NCBI GenBank assembly: GCA_016286785.1
Contig: JAEEUB010000012.1
Coordinates: 1-34,796, forward strand
Length of the DNA: 34,796 nt
Direction of reading: 5' to 3'
DNA from: Candidatus Saccharimonadota bacterium
Lineage (GTDB): Bacteria > Patescibacteriota > Saccharimonadia > Saccharimonadales > Saccharimonadaceae
Of the stretch, positions 2,770 to 8,580 are shown one piece after another; within the stretch, counting starts at the first letter, position 1; the number at the start of each line of letters is the position of its first letter. The position numbers and the translations under genes were made by a program. The notes beneath the pieces were generated by a model. That model saw nothing but the letters and a program-made list of their open reading frames with translations, was not told the origin of the DNA and ran no database searches.

Positions 2770-2845
2770 TGGTAGCCCCGGCGCGAGTCGAACGCACAAC
2801 CTTCTCCTTAGGACGGAGCCGCTCTATCCATTGAGCTACGGAGCC
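2770..2845 (-). tRNA. tRNA-Arg (anticodon CCT)
   Basis: On the minus strand a full cloverleaf is visible: acceptor GGCTCCG/CGGGGCT with two G-U pairs, D-arm GCTC...GAGC, anticodon loop GTCCTAA with CCT (reads AGG), T-loop TTCGACT, discriminator A and an encoded CCA. The anticodon stem has a G-A mismatch at its outer end. A minus-strand -10 (TGTTATAAT, hexamer 2862-2867) lies upstream. Two partial copies of its tail follow downstream. Confidence 0.95.
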
Positions 2846-2851
2846 AAAATA

Positions 2852-2870
2852 TGCTATAATTATTATAACA
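2852..2870. promoter_or_regulatory. Back-to-back divergent promoters, tRNA-Arg and foldase gene
   Basis: TGCTATAAT on plus (hexamer 2855-2860) and TGTTATAAT on minus (hexamer 2862-2867) are separated by one base. The plus hexamer ends 9 bases before ATG 2870; the minus one is 16 bases from the tRNA 5' end. The two -10 boxes cannot be melted independently, so the two transcripts should compete or share an open complex. Confidence 0.65.
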
Positions 2871-3883
2871 TGAAACTATCGAAGAAAAAAGAGAAGAAAC
2901 AATCCGAACAGGAAAAAGTGGAGGAGCGTCGCGAAGAGGTACTGGCCACTGGCCGCAAATTCAAATACCCTTTGCAGTGGACGAAACACCGCATCGTTGT
3001 AAACACCATCCTGATTGCATTTGTAATTCTGGCAATGATTGTTGTTGGTATTTGGCTTGCACTCTATCGTCTAGGTATGACAGACGATCCCCTTTATCGC
3101 ATCACTAAGGTTGTCCCTGTCTCCGTAGCGAGCGTCGAATCGGCCGGCGTACCTTTTTCCGACTATTTAATGCTTTATCGTAGTAGTATTTCGTCTATCG
3201 AGCGCCAATCTGGCAGCCAATTCGACCAAAGCTCGGCCGAGGCTCTGCGCGCCAAATATAAGCGCGTAGCCCTTACCGAAGCCGAAAAATACTCTTTTGC
3301 TGCCGCGCTAGCTAAAGATTTGAATATCAATATCTCAAATGAACAGATTAAATCAGAATTCGACCGTCATCTCAAAATCGGCGGTATCGACCGTAGCGAA
3401 GAAGGATTTTTAAAGATCATTAACGACAATTTTAGCTTAGACAAAGGCGAATACGAGCACATGCTCTATCTATCACTCTTAAAATCAGAAGTTAGCGTTG
3501 CGATTGATGAAAATGCAAATCGTATCGCAGGCGAGGTCGAACGCCAACTGGCCGAGAATGAAAACGACTACAAGCAGGTAGCCGAGCAATTAGGTGAAAG
3601 TGTTATTTACCAGGAAACCGGCGGCCTAGTAGATAGCAAAAACATTGACGGCGGCCGCGCCACCGAAGCCATGAAGCTAGAACCCGGCCAAAGTAGCGGT
3701 AAGTTTATTTCCATGAATGGAGACGGATATTATTTTGTAAAACTAATCAAAAAGAACGACGCCGAGGTTAATTTTGTTTCGATCAAAGTTCCATTTACGG
3801 AGTTCGATAAACGTTTCGAAACGCTTCAAGATGAGAATAAGATTCAAGAGTATATTGAATTACGAGACGCAGAAAAAAGATAG
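2870..3883 (+). CDS. Membrane-anchored SurA/PpiC-like foldase
   Basis: A 337-residue protein with a Lys/Glu-rich cytoplasmic N-terminus (about 1-40), one transmembrane helix (about 43-70, NTILIAFVILAMIVVGIWLALY), then an extracytoplasmic region. About residues 85-210 are helical and resemble the SurA N-terminal chaperone domain. About 235-337 contain GGLVDSKNIDGGRATEAMKLEPGQSSGKFIS..GYYFVKLIKK, which is the parvulin/PpiC (peptidyl-prolyl isomerase) pattern. The role would be folding of exported proteins at the outer membrane face, which fits a cell with a large exported hydrolase and pilins. The start at 2870 follows the -10 by 9 bases; earlier in-frame starts overlap tRNA-Arg. Isomerase activity is not certain, since the parvulin part is short. 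Confidence 0.75.
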   Translation: MKLSKKKEKKQSEQEKVEERREEVLATGRKFKYPLQWTKHRIVVNTILIAFVILAMIVVGIWLALYRLGMTDDPLYRITKVVPVSVASVESAGVPFSDYLMLYRSSISSIERQSGSQFDQSSAEALRAKYKRVALTEAEKYSFAAALAKDLNINISNEQIKSEFDRHLKIGGIDRSEEGFLKIINDNFSLDKGEYEHMLYLSLLKSEVSVAIDENANRIAGEVERQLAENENDYKQVAEQLGESVIYQETGGLVDSKNIDGGRATEAMKLEPGQSSGKFISMNGDGYYFVKLIKKNDAEVNFVSIKVPFTEFDKRFETLQDENKIQEYIELRDAEKR

Positions 3884-3927
3884 AAAAAGACATAAATTTG
3901 AAAAATAGAGATTTTTTGTTTTTGCTA

Positions 3928-3956
3928 TTGACAAATTAAATGATGTGTGCTCAAGT
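3928..3956 (+). promoter_or_regulatory. Candidate promoter of the structured RNA
   Basis: A perfect TTGACA (3928-3933) is followed after 17 bases by TG-C-TCAAGT (hexamer 3951-3956). The -10 is poor (three of six) but the -35 and extended TG are good. Predicted start about 3963. Confidence 0.45.
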
Positions 3957-4239
3957 AACACTCAAATGGTGGCCTGACGCCAGATGGGTGGAGCGTTATG
4001 TACGCTCTTGGTGGTTTCTCCTCGCCTTGTCCTACGAGGGGGACGGAAAACATCAAGAGCGGATGGGAAGGACATCCTCACCTCCATCGCCGAGGAGATG
4101 AGCAGATAAAAGGGTCAGGTGGGCGCGTGGGTCGTCCGATAAAATGAGGAGAATTCAAGGCGCGCAGTCCTTTTAGGATTGCAAATGGAATTCAAATCAA
4201 ACCCGCATTGCTCGACCCTGACGCTTACGCGCCAGGAAG

Positions 4240-4269
4240 GCCCCCGCTTTTAGGCGGGGGCATACTTTT
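4240..4269 (+). terminator. Very stable hairpin, possible first terminator of the RNA
   Basis: Eight-pair stem GCCCCCGC / GCGGGGGC with a 6-nt loop, followed by ATACTTTTA. The T-run is weak, so this may be an internal stem of the longer RNA rather than its end. Confidence 0.55.
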
Positions 4270-4332
4270 ATCTGTGTAGACATAGAAAGCAAGATTTTGC
4301 AATGCGGATTCTCCTCTTGCATCATATCAAAT

Positions 4333-4362
4333 AAAAAGTAAGTCCCTTTGGGACTTATTTTT
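4333..4362 (+). terminator. Intrinsic terminator, bidirectional
   Basis: Stem TAAGTCCC / GGGACTTA (4339-4357) with a 3-nt loop, five T after it and five A before it. Probable true 3' end of the structured RNA. Confidence 0.8.
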
Positions 4363-4538
4363 GGTGCACGATTCTTTATGAAGTTCGTACCTCATTATTA
4401 TACCATAGCTAACCCCATTATTTATTCTTATTAGGCATAACTCCAGAGAAAAGTCTAAAGGAACTAGAAGAAGAAAATAAGGAATTAAGATAATAGTTAA
4501 AATGTGAAGTATAATAAGTGGTAGGAAGGATTACTTTA
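4363..4538 (+). other. AT-rich spacer with a decayed coding fragment and promoter
   Basis: Between 4417 and 4493 one plus frame reads PHYLFLLGITPEKSLKELEEENKELR then stop, flanked upstream by a stop. The charged helical end resembles the tail of many transposase or coiled-coil proteins, but it is too short to assign. TATAAT at 4510-4515 and GGAAGGA around 4524-4530 then serve the DUF4272 gene. Confidence 0.35.
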
Positions 4539-5531
4539 ATGGAAGAAAACCTAATTAATGATAAAAAGTTAAAAGAGAACATAAGTAATACCGTTGTTGC
4601 GGTGCTATTAGATAATAAATTAATAAATGAGAATGATTTAACAGATGTTAATGTTAACTTTGGCTATTTGTTTGCTAAAGCTGATAGGATAGCAGAGGGG
4701 CTTTTAAAGATTTCGTGCAAAGGAAAATCATTCTATTTTGCTGTTCAAGATAATACAATTAAATTGCTTACTATTGGCGAAGTGCAGTATCAAGAAACTA
4801 TTAATTATATGGTAAGCAATCATGATTGCCTAAAAGAAACTCCAAGTATTGAAAATGAAAAAGAAAAAAATAGAAGAATAAAAAATAATAAAGTATTAGA
4901 ACAATTTGGAATTACCACGAATGATAAACTTGTTAGTGGTAAAAATGAACAAAATATAAGAATTAAAAGTGTTGATGAAATATGTAAAAGAGCCATTGCC
5001 AGTTTAATAACAATACAAGTTGCATGTGATATTAATAACGGAAAAGATATAAAGAGTGATGAATATAAAGATGATTTTGAATATATAAAATCTTTGTATA
5101 AAAAATTTGGTGTCGAAGATAGTTTGAACTCTAAGGAAAAAAGAATTATTGAAGGAACCTATACAGATCAGGATCCGATTGATATGGATTGGGCTTATGA
5201 ATCATATTGGACTTTGTGTTGGGCGCTCGGTTTGGTTAATGATATAACAAATGCTGCTGAATTATGTGATTGCAGTATGGCTATTTCATTTGTTATGAAT
5301 AATAATTCGTTTGATGAATTTAGAAGCAAATGTAAATTAAGGAGCGTTGAAGAAATACTTGATATGTATGATTTATATTATAAATATCATTGGGTTATAA
5401 ACGACAAAAAGGTTAATCCAAGCACAAGTGCCGATAATCTTAATCCATCCAATGTGCTTGAACGTAGAAGGGCATTAGAATGGTTAATTAGTGACGTTGA
5501 TGATTGGTATGATTTGCAACTTAATGCTTGA
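4539..5531 (+). CDS. DUF4272-family protein, probably acquired
   Basis: A 330-residue protein. Residues about 1-100 form an alpha/beta N-terminal region of unknown type. From about 145, RIKSVDEICKRAIASLITIQVACD, then SLNSKEKRIIEGTY, then AYESYWTLCWALGLVNDI match the DUF4272 pattern as I know it from Firmicutes; near the C-terminus ERRRALEWLISDVDDWYD fits the same family. Biochemical function is unknown. ATG 4539 was chosen over GTG 4518 because GGAAGGA precedes it at proper spacing. The gene is distinctly AT-rich, with ATA, AGA and TTA codons where neighbours use CGC and CTA, and it ends in TGA. It stands alone between an RNA gene and a tRNA, which suggests horizontal acquisition. No stop-free partner gene is adjacent. 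Confidence 0.75.
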   Translation: MEENLINDKKLKENISNTVVAVLLDNKLINENDLTDVNVNFGYLFAKADRIAEGLLKISCKGKSFYFAVQDNTIKLLTIGEVQYQETINYMVSNHDCLKETPSIENEKEKNRRIKNNKVLEQFGITTNDKLVSGKNEQNIRIKSVDEICKRAIASLITIQVACDINNGKDIKSDEYKDDFEYIKSLYKKFGVEDSLNSKEKRIIEGTYTDQDPIDMDWAYESYWTLCWALGLVNDITNAAELCDCSMAISFVMNNNSFDEFRSKCKLRSVEEILDMYDLYYKYHWVINDKKVNPSTSADNLNPSNVLERRRALEWLISDVDDWYDLQLNA

Positions 5532-5599
5532 ATACTAAAACTACAGAGATGCGGTTTTTGCTTGTAACAAATAATTAATCTATACAATTTTTACTTTTT

Positions 5600-5674
5600 T
5601 GGTGCGGGTACAGGGAGTCGGACCCTGATCTCATCCTTGGGAAGGATACATAATAGCCGCTATACGATACCCGC
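5600..5674 (-). tRNA. tRNA-Gly (anticodon CCC)
   Basis: Minus-strand cloverleaf with a perfect acceptor GCGGGTA/TACCCGC, anticodon loop TTCCCAA with CCC (reads GGG), T-arm AGGG-TCCGACT-CCCT, discriminator A and encoded CCA. Unlike the tRNA-Arg and tRNA-Ser genes of this window, it has no duplicated tail. Confidence 0.93.
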
Positions 5675-7458: not shown

Positions 7459-8580
7459 ATGAACAATGACAATGATTTTAACTTTCTTAAACTAGAAACC
7501 AACCATCAAAACCTTATTTATAGCCCACTTTCCATTCGCAATGGTCTAGCTCTTCTTAGTGCCGGAGCAAACGGCGCTACCAAGGCCGAAATCGACGCTG
7601 TTCTCGGTGACGCCGAAATACCTAAATATCAAAATGATAATAAAACATCTTTAGCTAACGCTATTTTTATTCGCGATACCTTTAAAGATAAAGTCCTTTC
7701 ATCATATACGGATCTAATTCGGGACAAGTATGGTGGAGAAGTTATTTACGATAATTTTGCATCCAACGAAAAAATGAACAACTGGGTTTCAGAAAAAACT
7801 TTCAAGCTCATTGATAGTATTGGTATTGAATCAAGTTCCGAACTTAGGATGGTCCTCGCGAATGCTCTTGCTATCAAAATGGATTGGAAATATAAATTCC
7901 GAACCGATAAAACTTATGGAATGAACTTTGTTAAGCAAGATGGTACTAATATAGAAGCTACTATGATGCAAAATCAATACTATAACGAAGACATGAAATA
8001 CTTTGCCGACGAAAAAATGAAATCCATCACCTTACCGCTTGCATCCAGCTCCAATACTGAGTTGGAATTCTCTGCAATAATGCCTTCTGGCAATCTCAAC
8101 GAATATATCAATAATACTTCTATTTCCGATATTAATGCCATCCTCGATAACTCTATATCTGCCGCCACGCCAGAACACGGAGTAAAACTCTTCATTCCTA
8201 AATTTAAATTCGATTACAAGCTAGATTTCGAAAATAATCTTAAAACTATGGGTATTCAAGCGGCATTTAATAGTGATTCGGCAGATTTTTCGAAAATGGC
8301 GTCTTTCCCTCTATATATCAATAAAGCAGTACATAAAGCTAATATTGATTTTTCCGAAGATGGTATTAAAGCAGCCGCAGTCACTGCATTCGCAATGAGG
8401 GAGGCGGCTATTGCCAACTACGGACCTCGACCCCAACCTATTACTATCAAAATCAATCGCCCATTCTTGTTCGTTATCCGTGATCGGGAAAATGGCGCCA
8501 TTTGGTTTACTGGCACTGTGTATGAGCCAAACTCGTGGAAGAACGATATGAAAGAGTATAGGCCAGGCTACGACTATTAG
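7459..8580 (+). CDS. Serpin-family protease inhibitor, apparently cytoplasmic
   Basis: A 373-residue complete serpin fold. Recognisable segments: NLIYSPLSIRNGLALLSAGANGAT near residue 18 (serpin helix B region), VLANALAIKMDWKYKF (strand 3A, usually NA-YFKG-W), FIPKFKFDYKLDFENNLKTMGI, INKAVHKANIDFSEDGIKAAAVTAFAM (breach and hinge) and INRPFLFVIRDRENGAIWFTGTV (serpin C-terminal signature). The hinge EDGIKAAAVTAF with small residues at P12-P9 indicates an inhibitory serpin. If E300 is P17, the scissile pair is A316-A317, suggesting an elastase- or subtilisin-like target; a shifted P1 (R314) would instead favour trypsin-like targets. There is no signal peptide and no cysteine-rich region. Bacterial serpins are sporadic, and secreted in bifidobacteria; a cytoplasmic one may protect against own or host proteases (inference). 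Confidence 0.93.
   Translation: MNNDNDFNFLKLETNHQNLIYSPLSIRNGLALLSAGANGATKAEIDAVLGDAEIPKYQNDNKTSLANAIFIRDTFKDKVLSSYTDLIRDKYGGEVIYDNFASNEKMNNWVSEKTFKLIDSIGIESSSELRMVLANALAIKMDWKYKFRTDKTYGMNFVKQDGTNIEATMMQNQYYNEDMKYFADEKMKSITLPLASSSNTELEFSAIMPSGNLNEYINNTSISDINAILDNSISAATPEHGVKLFIPKFKFDYKLDFENNLKTMGIQAAFNSDSADFSKMASFPLYINKAVHKANIDFSEDGIKAAAVTAFAMREAAIANYGPRPQPITIKINRPFLFVIRDRENGAIWFTGTVYEPNSWKNDMKEYRPGYDY

Follow-up and report, generated by a model that had tools for sequence, protein, structure and literature searches.

What occupies the protein-free interval between the gene for a SurA/PpiC-like PPIase and that for a DUF4272 protein? The window analysed here, a stretch of 34,796 nucleotides (contig C21), comes from a genome of 0.77 Mb, 97% complete, in which genes are tightly packed and DUF285 repeats are present; this size and gene content point to an organism of the Patescibacteria/Saccharibacteria type. 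Many congeneric genomes were used for comparison. At its start the window encodes a DUF285 (BspA-like) repeat protein (48-860), and at 7459-8580 it shows that this small genome also encodes a serpin (PF00079, E 5e-69). The candidate RNA lies in the following setting:

2831-3883, SurA/PpiC-like PPIase gene, with its stop codon at 3883, upstream of the candidate RNA.
3962-4322, plus strand, candidate structured RNA, predicted core extent; MFE z-score -5.75 (3960-4365) or -4.8 (3960-4322), no coding match, GC 0.53.
4518-5531, plus strand, DUF4272 protein gene of the same island (PF14094, E 4e-55), GC about 0.28, with its own TATAAT upstream.
5600-5674, minus strand, tRNA-Gly gene, after the DUF4272 gene and followed by ArgS.

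The initial annotation had described the region as protein-free, and indeed no piece of any ORF in it gave a convincing match to Pfam or PHROGs. (A frame resembling DILTSIAEEMSR was considered as a decayed resolvase and discarded, having no support from either collection.) Nor could the RNA be placed in a known family, as had been said of RNase P and tmRNA. A search of Rfam 15 on both strands returned nothing at the gathering score; with the threshold relaxed to E 10, weak matches to unrelated families were all that appeared, every one of them under its gathering score. The covariance models named earlier as comparisons, those for raiA, OLE, ROOL, GOLLD and RNase P, did not match, and membership of the OLE, ROOL, GOLLD or raiA families as modeled in Rfam 15 was rejected. 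Identity with RNase P RNA or tmRNA was likewise rejected, with no covariance-model match at 3928-4362 and the genome's own genes for both RNAs on contig C19. The group I intron models stayed without a match even with E relaxed to 10, and there was no interrupted gene around the region. An OMEGA/TnpB-type guide RNA was set aside after a search of the genome for PF07282, the one family covered, gave no match, and a riboswitch or attenuator was set aside because the predicted folds do not involve the terminator stem.

The unusual complementarity of the region was read out directly from the sequence. The 9-mer GCAATGCGG (4299-4307) is exactly complementary to CCGCATTGC (4203-4211), and ATTCTCCTC (4308-4316) is exactly complementary to GAGGAGAAT (4146-4154). 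The 18-nt 3' strand 4299-4316 is therefore made up of two adjacent 9-mers with separate internal partners, just as the initial annotation had it. The pairings at issue are these:

4122-4233, plus strand, helix 1, 13 bp, exact: GGCGCGT (4122-4128) with ACGCGCC (4227-4233), 7 bp, and GGGTCG (4129-4134) with CGACCC (4213-4218), 6 bp.
4203-4211 with 4299-4307, plus strand, helix b, 9 bp, exact, crossing helix 1; pair probability 0.86 in the nested ensemble, duplex energy -14.6 kcal/mol.
4146-4154 with 4308-4316, plus strand, helix a, 9 bp, exact, crossing helix 1, its 3' strand continuous with that of helix b; duplex energy -12.1.

Because both internal partners lie inside helix 1 while the 3' strand lies outside it, helices a and b cross helix 1, in agreement with the earlier claim. 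Neighbouring 9-mers, each with an exact partner, arose in 0.15% of 2000 dinucleotide shuffles (P = 0.0015). For exact 9-mer complements as a whole, the statistic, in which every pair is counted from both sides, was 8 versus 0.57 expected (P = 0.006, 2000 dinucleotide shuffles). Some of these strands have competing partners. A second GAGGAGA (4092-4098) rivals helix a for the 3' strand, with a duplex energy of -10.9 versus -12.1, and beats it in the plain ensemble. In addition, CCTGACGC is present twice, at 3973-3980 and again at 4217-4224, and the CCTGAC within each copy is a possible partner for GTCAGG (4114-4119), which the read-out bore out.

Folding calculations upheld the claim of dense complementarity over a large region. 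The MFE of 3960-4365 was -161.5 kcal/mol, with a z-score of -5.75, and none of 100 shuffles was as stable; depending on the extent taken, the z-score ranged from -4.8 (3960-4322) to -5.8. In a scan of the 34.8 kb at 95 positions on both strands (190 scan windows, with rough z-scores from 10 shuffles each), the two strand versions of the region ranked first and second. The minus strand of the region folds with a similar z-score. Under the same protocol, with 30 shuffles each, the RNase P RNA and tmRNA of the same genome reached z-scores of -3.2 and -2.1, and the candidate folds more strongly than both. The region is a credible large structured RNA candidate that folds far better than chance. 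Its z-score, its rank and its advantage over the genome's own RNase P RNA and tmRNA, together with the rarity of adjacent crossing complements in shuffled sequences, argue for a stand-alone structured RNA.

The predicted fold has a 5' domain built on a three-way junction and a 3' domain that contains several hairpins:

3987-4088, plus strand, three-way junction of the 5' domain, closed by helix 3987-3993:4082-4088, pair probability 0.69.
4004-4013 with 4051-4060, plus strand, long arm of the 5' domain, ending in an inner hairpin, pair probability 1.00.
4061-4065 with 4073-4077, plus strand, short hairpin of the 5' domain, pair probability 0.68.
4164-4182, plus strand, hairpin GCAGTCCT/AGGATTGC of the 3' domain, pair probability 0.76.
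4240-4261, plus strand, GC-rich hairpin GCCCCCGCT/GGCGGGGGC of the 3' domain, pair probability 0.98.
4271-4286, plus strand, hairpin TCTGTG/CATAGA of the 3' domain, pair probability 0.95.

The free MFE structure, which contains helix b, has an energy of -146.1, compared to -143.0 when helix 1 is forced. Helix 1 and helix b together, as a pseudoknot, would come to about -136.4 - 14.6 before the pseudoknot penalty is added. When successive prefixes were folded, the 4110-4232 domain kept a helix-1-like structure until about 4300 and was rearranged once 4299-4322 was present, which implies that either the pseudoknot closes or the domain refolds at this stage. By these energy models, which cannot choose between them, a pseudoknot and a two-state switch are equally possible. 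Thus, of the proposal that the RNA forms a deep pseudoknot or alternates between two folds, the strong structure stood and the pseudoknot is possible, while coexistence of the crossing helices did not follow from the near-equal energies. We regard the pseudoknot as a well-founded hypothesis and the region as probably pseudoknotted.

We then considered how such an RNA might be transcribed. The signals around it are as follows:

3928-3933, plus strand, TTGACA, a perfect -35-like hexamer in the sequence with no convincing -10; a putative weak promoter of the RNA's own.
4339-4362, both strands, bidirectional terminator, a hairpin with a T-run on each side; the plus-strand reading is TAAGTCCC TTT GGGACTTA TTTTT, and the terminator scan lists the minus strand.
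4390 to 4362 (4362-4390), minus strand, conserved 29-nt hairpin GTACGAACTTCATAAAGAATCGTGCACCA, ending in CCA, a neighbour outside the candidate RNA.

The hexamer reported earlier as promoter-like is a perfect -35, but it lacks a proper -10: a promoter scan of the region gave 0 passing, and the best hexamer at 17-nt spacing, TCAAGT, matches at 3/6 positions. The terminator was as clean as claimed, with T-runs in both directions, and is common to the candidate RNA and a minus-strand hairpin unit. From the PPIase stop codon (3883) as far as 3960 no terminator was found, so that read-through from the PPIase gene is possible. In one relative (G174, locus L079), the PPIase stop directly precedes a terminator and the same minus-strand hairpin unit as at 4390-4362, an arrangement that places the RNA of the window between gene and terminator. 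The unpaired bases of the plus strand (A 0.38, G 0.21, C 0.15) are rich in A and G like those of RNase P RNA in the sense direction (A 0.48, G 0.21, C 0.14), which favors this strand; those of the minus strand (C 0.31, G 0.10) resemble RNase P antisense. Wobbles in the imperfect helices were balanced (4 G-U versus 4 A-C) and uninformative as to strand, and an extended -10-like TGATATGAT near 4329, oriented toward the minus strand, counts against the plus-strand reading. On balance, plus is the likely strand of the candidate.

Covariation in homologues would be the decisive test of the helices. BLAST searches of 174 congeners with the DNA gave the genome itself as the only real match, the rest being terminators or chance, and the outcome was the same in DNA searches of 393 genomes of the order and 380 of the phylum (the three sets overlap). 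Nor was it found in E. coli genomes, phages or plasmids; all these DNA searches together yielded only terminators, chance coding matches, or nothing (the single match in a plasmid covered 38 nt, with E 0.3). Exact DNA patterns found only scattered matches in viral contigs, which were rejected with the R1 or R2 covariance models. Single-sequence models of the 3' and 5' domains detected no relative among the 174 congeners. The R2 model matched its own locus only. Of the best R1 matches, those inspected proved to be an intergenic terminator (L054), a GC hairpin (L055) and a sequence 3' of an rny-like gene (L056). A pseudo-peptide scan of the contigs of the genome collection returned a single hit, which was spurious and lay in a gene that reads as an M42-type peptidase. 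The candidate is an orphan RNA, found in one genome among those searched. With no homologue in the 174, 393 and 380 genomes, there is neither covariation nor any sign that selection acts on the structure, which counts against the RNA reading; single-sequence models miss strongly diverged relatives, leaving room for a fast-evolving family.

The locus is a variable one. Among 29 relatives read around the PPIase gene, many have tRNA-Gly(CCC) within 1.1 kb, often directly, and others have different genes in between, which identifies the PPIase/tRNA-Gly interval as a variable site. In the window, the island at 3884-5600 consists of the candidate RNA and the AT-rich DUF4272 gene, inserted between the PPIase gene and tRNA-Gly/ArgS. 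It is flanked by imperfect 36-nt direct repeats (3901-3936 and 5537-5572, 72%) that may mark its boundary or may be due to chance, and the TTGACA at 3928-3933, which lies within the repeat, may belong to that boundary instead of a promoter. At the same site in another relative (G022, locus L016, about 2520-2890), the sequence after the PPIase gene is rich in AT, contains a long nested stem (CTACAATTAATCATATTTATCA ... TGATAAATATGATTGGTTGTAG) and has no Rfam match; it is possibly another, unrelated small RNA.

The minus-strand unit spans 4405 to 4338 and consists of an extended -10 (TATGGTATAAT, at about 4395-4405), the 29-nt hairpin GTACGAACT...TCGTGCACCA (its RNA ends also written GUACGAACUU...UCGUGCACCA) and then the terminator. 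The predicted start is at about the first base of the hairpin. An exact pattern search found the hairpin in 7 of the 174 congeners, own genome included, with no control matches, and a looser scan of the collected loci added an eighth (L023), for 8 congeneric genomes including its own. It occurs at differing loci with constant stem ends and a variable loop, and ends in ACCA like the tRNA genes of the same genus. By its sequence, the unit looks like a free-standing tRNA acceptor minihelix. It may be a firmer discovery than the large RNA candidate, and it deserves separate study.

We give about even chances to a lineage-restricted, plus-strand, stand-alone structured non-coding RNA of about 360-400 nt with a candidate function. 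That DUF4272 forms a separate unit after the terminator speaks for this reading, which is weakened by the missing -10 box, the balanced wobbles and the similar z-score of the minus strand. It is somewhat unlikely that the region is instead a structured 3' UTR of the PPIase gene, made by read-through only and protecting or regulating the upstream mRNA (3'-end stability, RNase block) with no separate RNA. The terminator-free stretch from 3883 to 3960, the lack of a good own promoter and the position of the terminator at 4339, in the place of the PPIase terminator in L079, would all fit, but the RNA is much bigger and more elaborate than 3' protection requires, and in the relatives read the site is occupied only by a short hairpin or by different genes. 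A leader switch for the downstream DUF4272 gene, in which two 3'-end folds decide termination at 4339, would explain why two competing folds end just 5' of a terminator with a same-strand gene after it. However, the terminator stem takes part in neither fold, and a promoter-like TATAAT of its own lies just upstream of DUF4272, making such a switch very unlikely; a minus-strand unit with its own promoter also lies in between, and the GC content differs sharply (0.53 versus about 0.28).

The inverted repeats might also act as DNA, as a mobile-element end, a recombination site or an origin that folds as a single strand. Insertion in a variable spot adjoining tRNA genes, the direct repeats around the island and the balance of G-U and A-C wobbles agree with such an element, which we nevertheless consider unlikely: the island has no integrase or transposase, the genome contains the region only once, nothing matched in phages, plasmids or viral contigs, and the repeats on either side are weak and could have arisen by chance. 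Quite improbable, finally, is a decayed or chance sequence, the remnant of an acquired element whose leftover complementarities have no present function. Its presence in one genome only would be expected of a remnant, but the long exact helices are undecayed, where decay would erode exact matches of 9 to 13 bp, and the fold is the strongest in the window and above that of RNase P RNA.

If the region is a stand-alone RNA, it would be transcribed either from a weak promoter of its own, at the TTGACA, or as read-through of the PPIase gene. The 5' three-way-junction domain and helix 1 would form first during synthesis, and as the last 20 nt (4299-4316) emerge they would pair back into the domain, either locking the pseudoknot or opening helix 1. 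The finished RNA would presumably act in trans, either as a compactly folded molecule by itself or as a ribonucleoprotein scaffold. We tentatively entertain a new class of large pseudoknotted RNA, either restricted to a single lineage of a small-genome bacterial genus or evolving very fast there, in which the 3' 18-nt strand would close the fold as transcription ends. Bacteria have few large structured RNAs, and every one of them has led to new biology; a fold stronger than that of RNase P RNA, in a 0.77-Mb genome with little that is dispensable, would be worth a transcript check. The isolation of the candidate exposes a limit of covariation-based discovery, by which an RNA of one lineage is neither found nor proved.

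Among known systems, the strand order of helix 1 and helix b is that of P3 and P7 in group I introns, with a P8-like hairpin between them, but helix a would not fit such a core. ROOL and GOLLD are longer than the candidate RNA. Like OLE, ROOL and GOLLD, the candidate is a long, protein-free, multi-helix RNA gene; unlike these recurrent families, it was found once, and with no phage context, and their class is defined by a homo-oligomer made by RNA alone. OLE, ROOL and GOLLD have intricate tertiary contacts (PMC12286853). The raiA motif (ModT RNA) is also non-coding, structured and a few hundred nt long; it is reported to have a complex tertiary structure and to be conserved in >2,500 species (PMC11706538), a wide distribution compared to that of the candidate, which has no match. 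RNase P RNA and tmRNA, both present in the same genome, are of a size similar to that of the candidate and have pseudoknots, as proposed for it.
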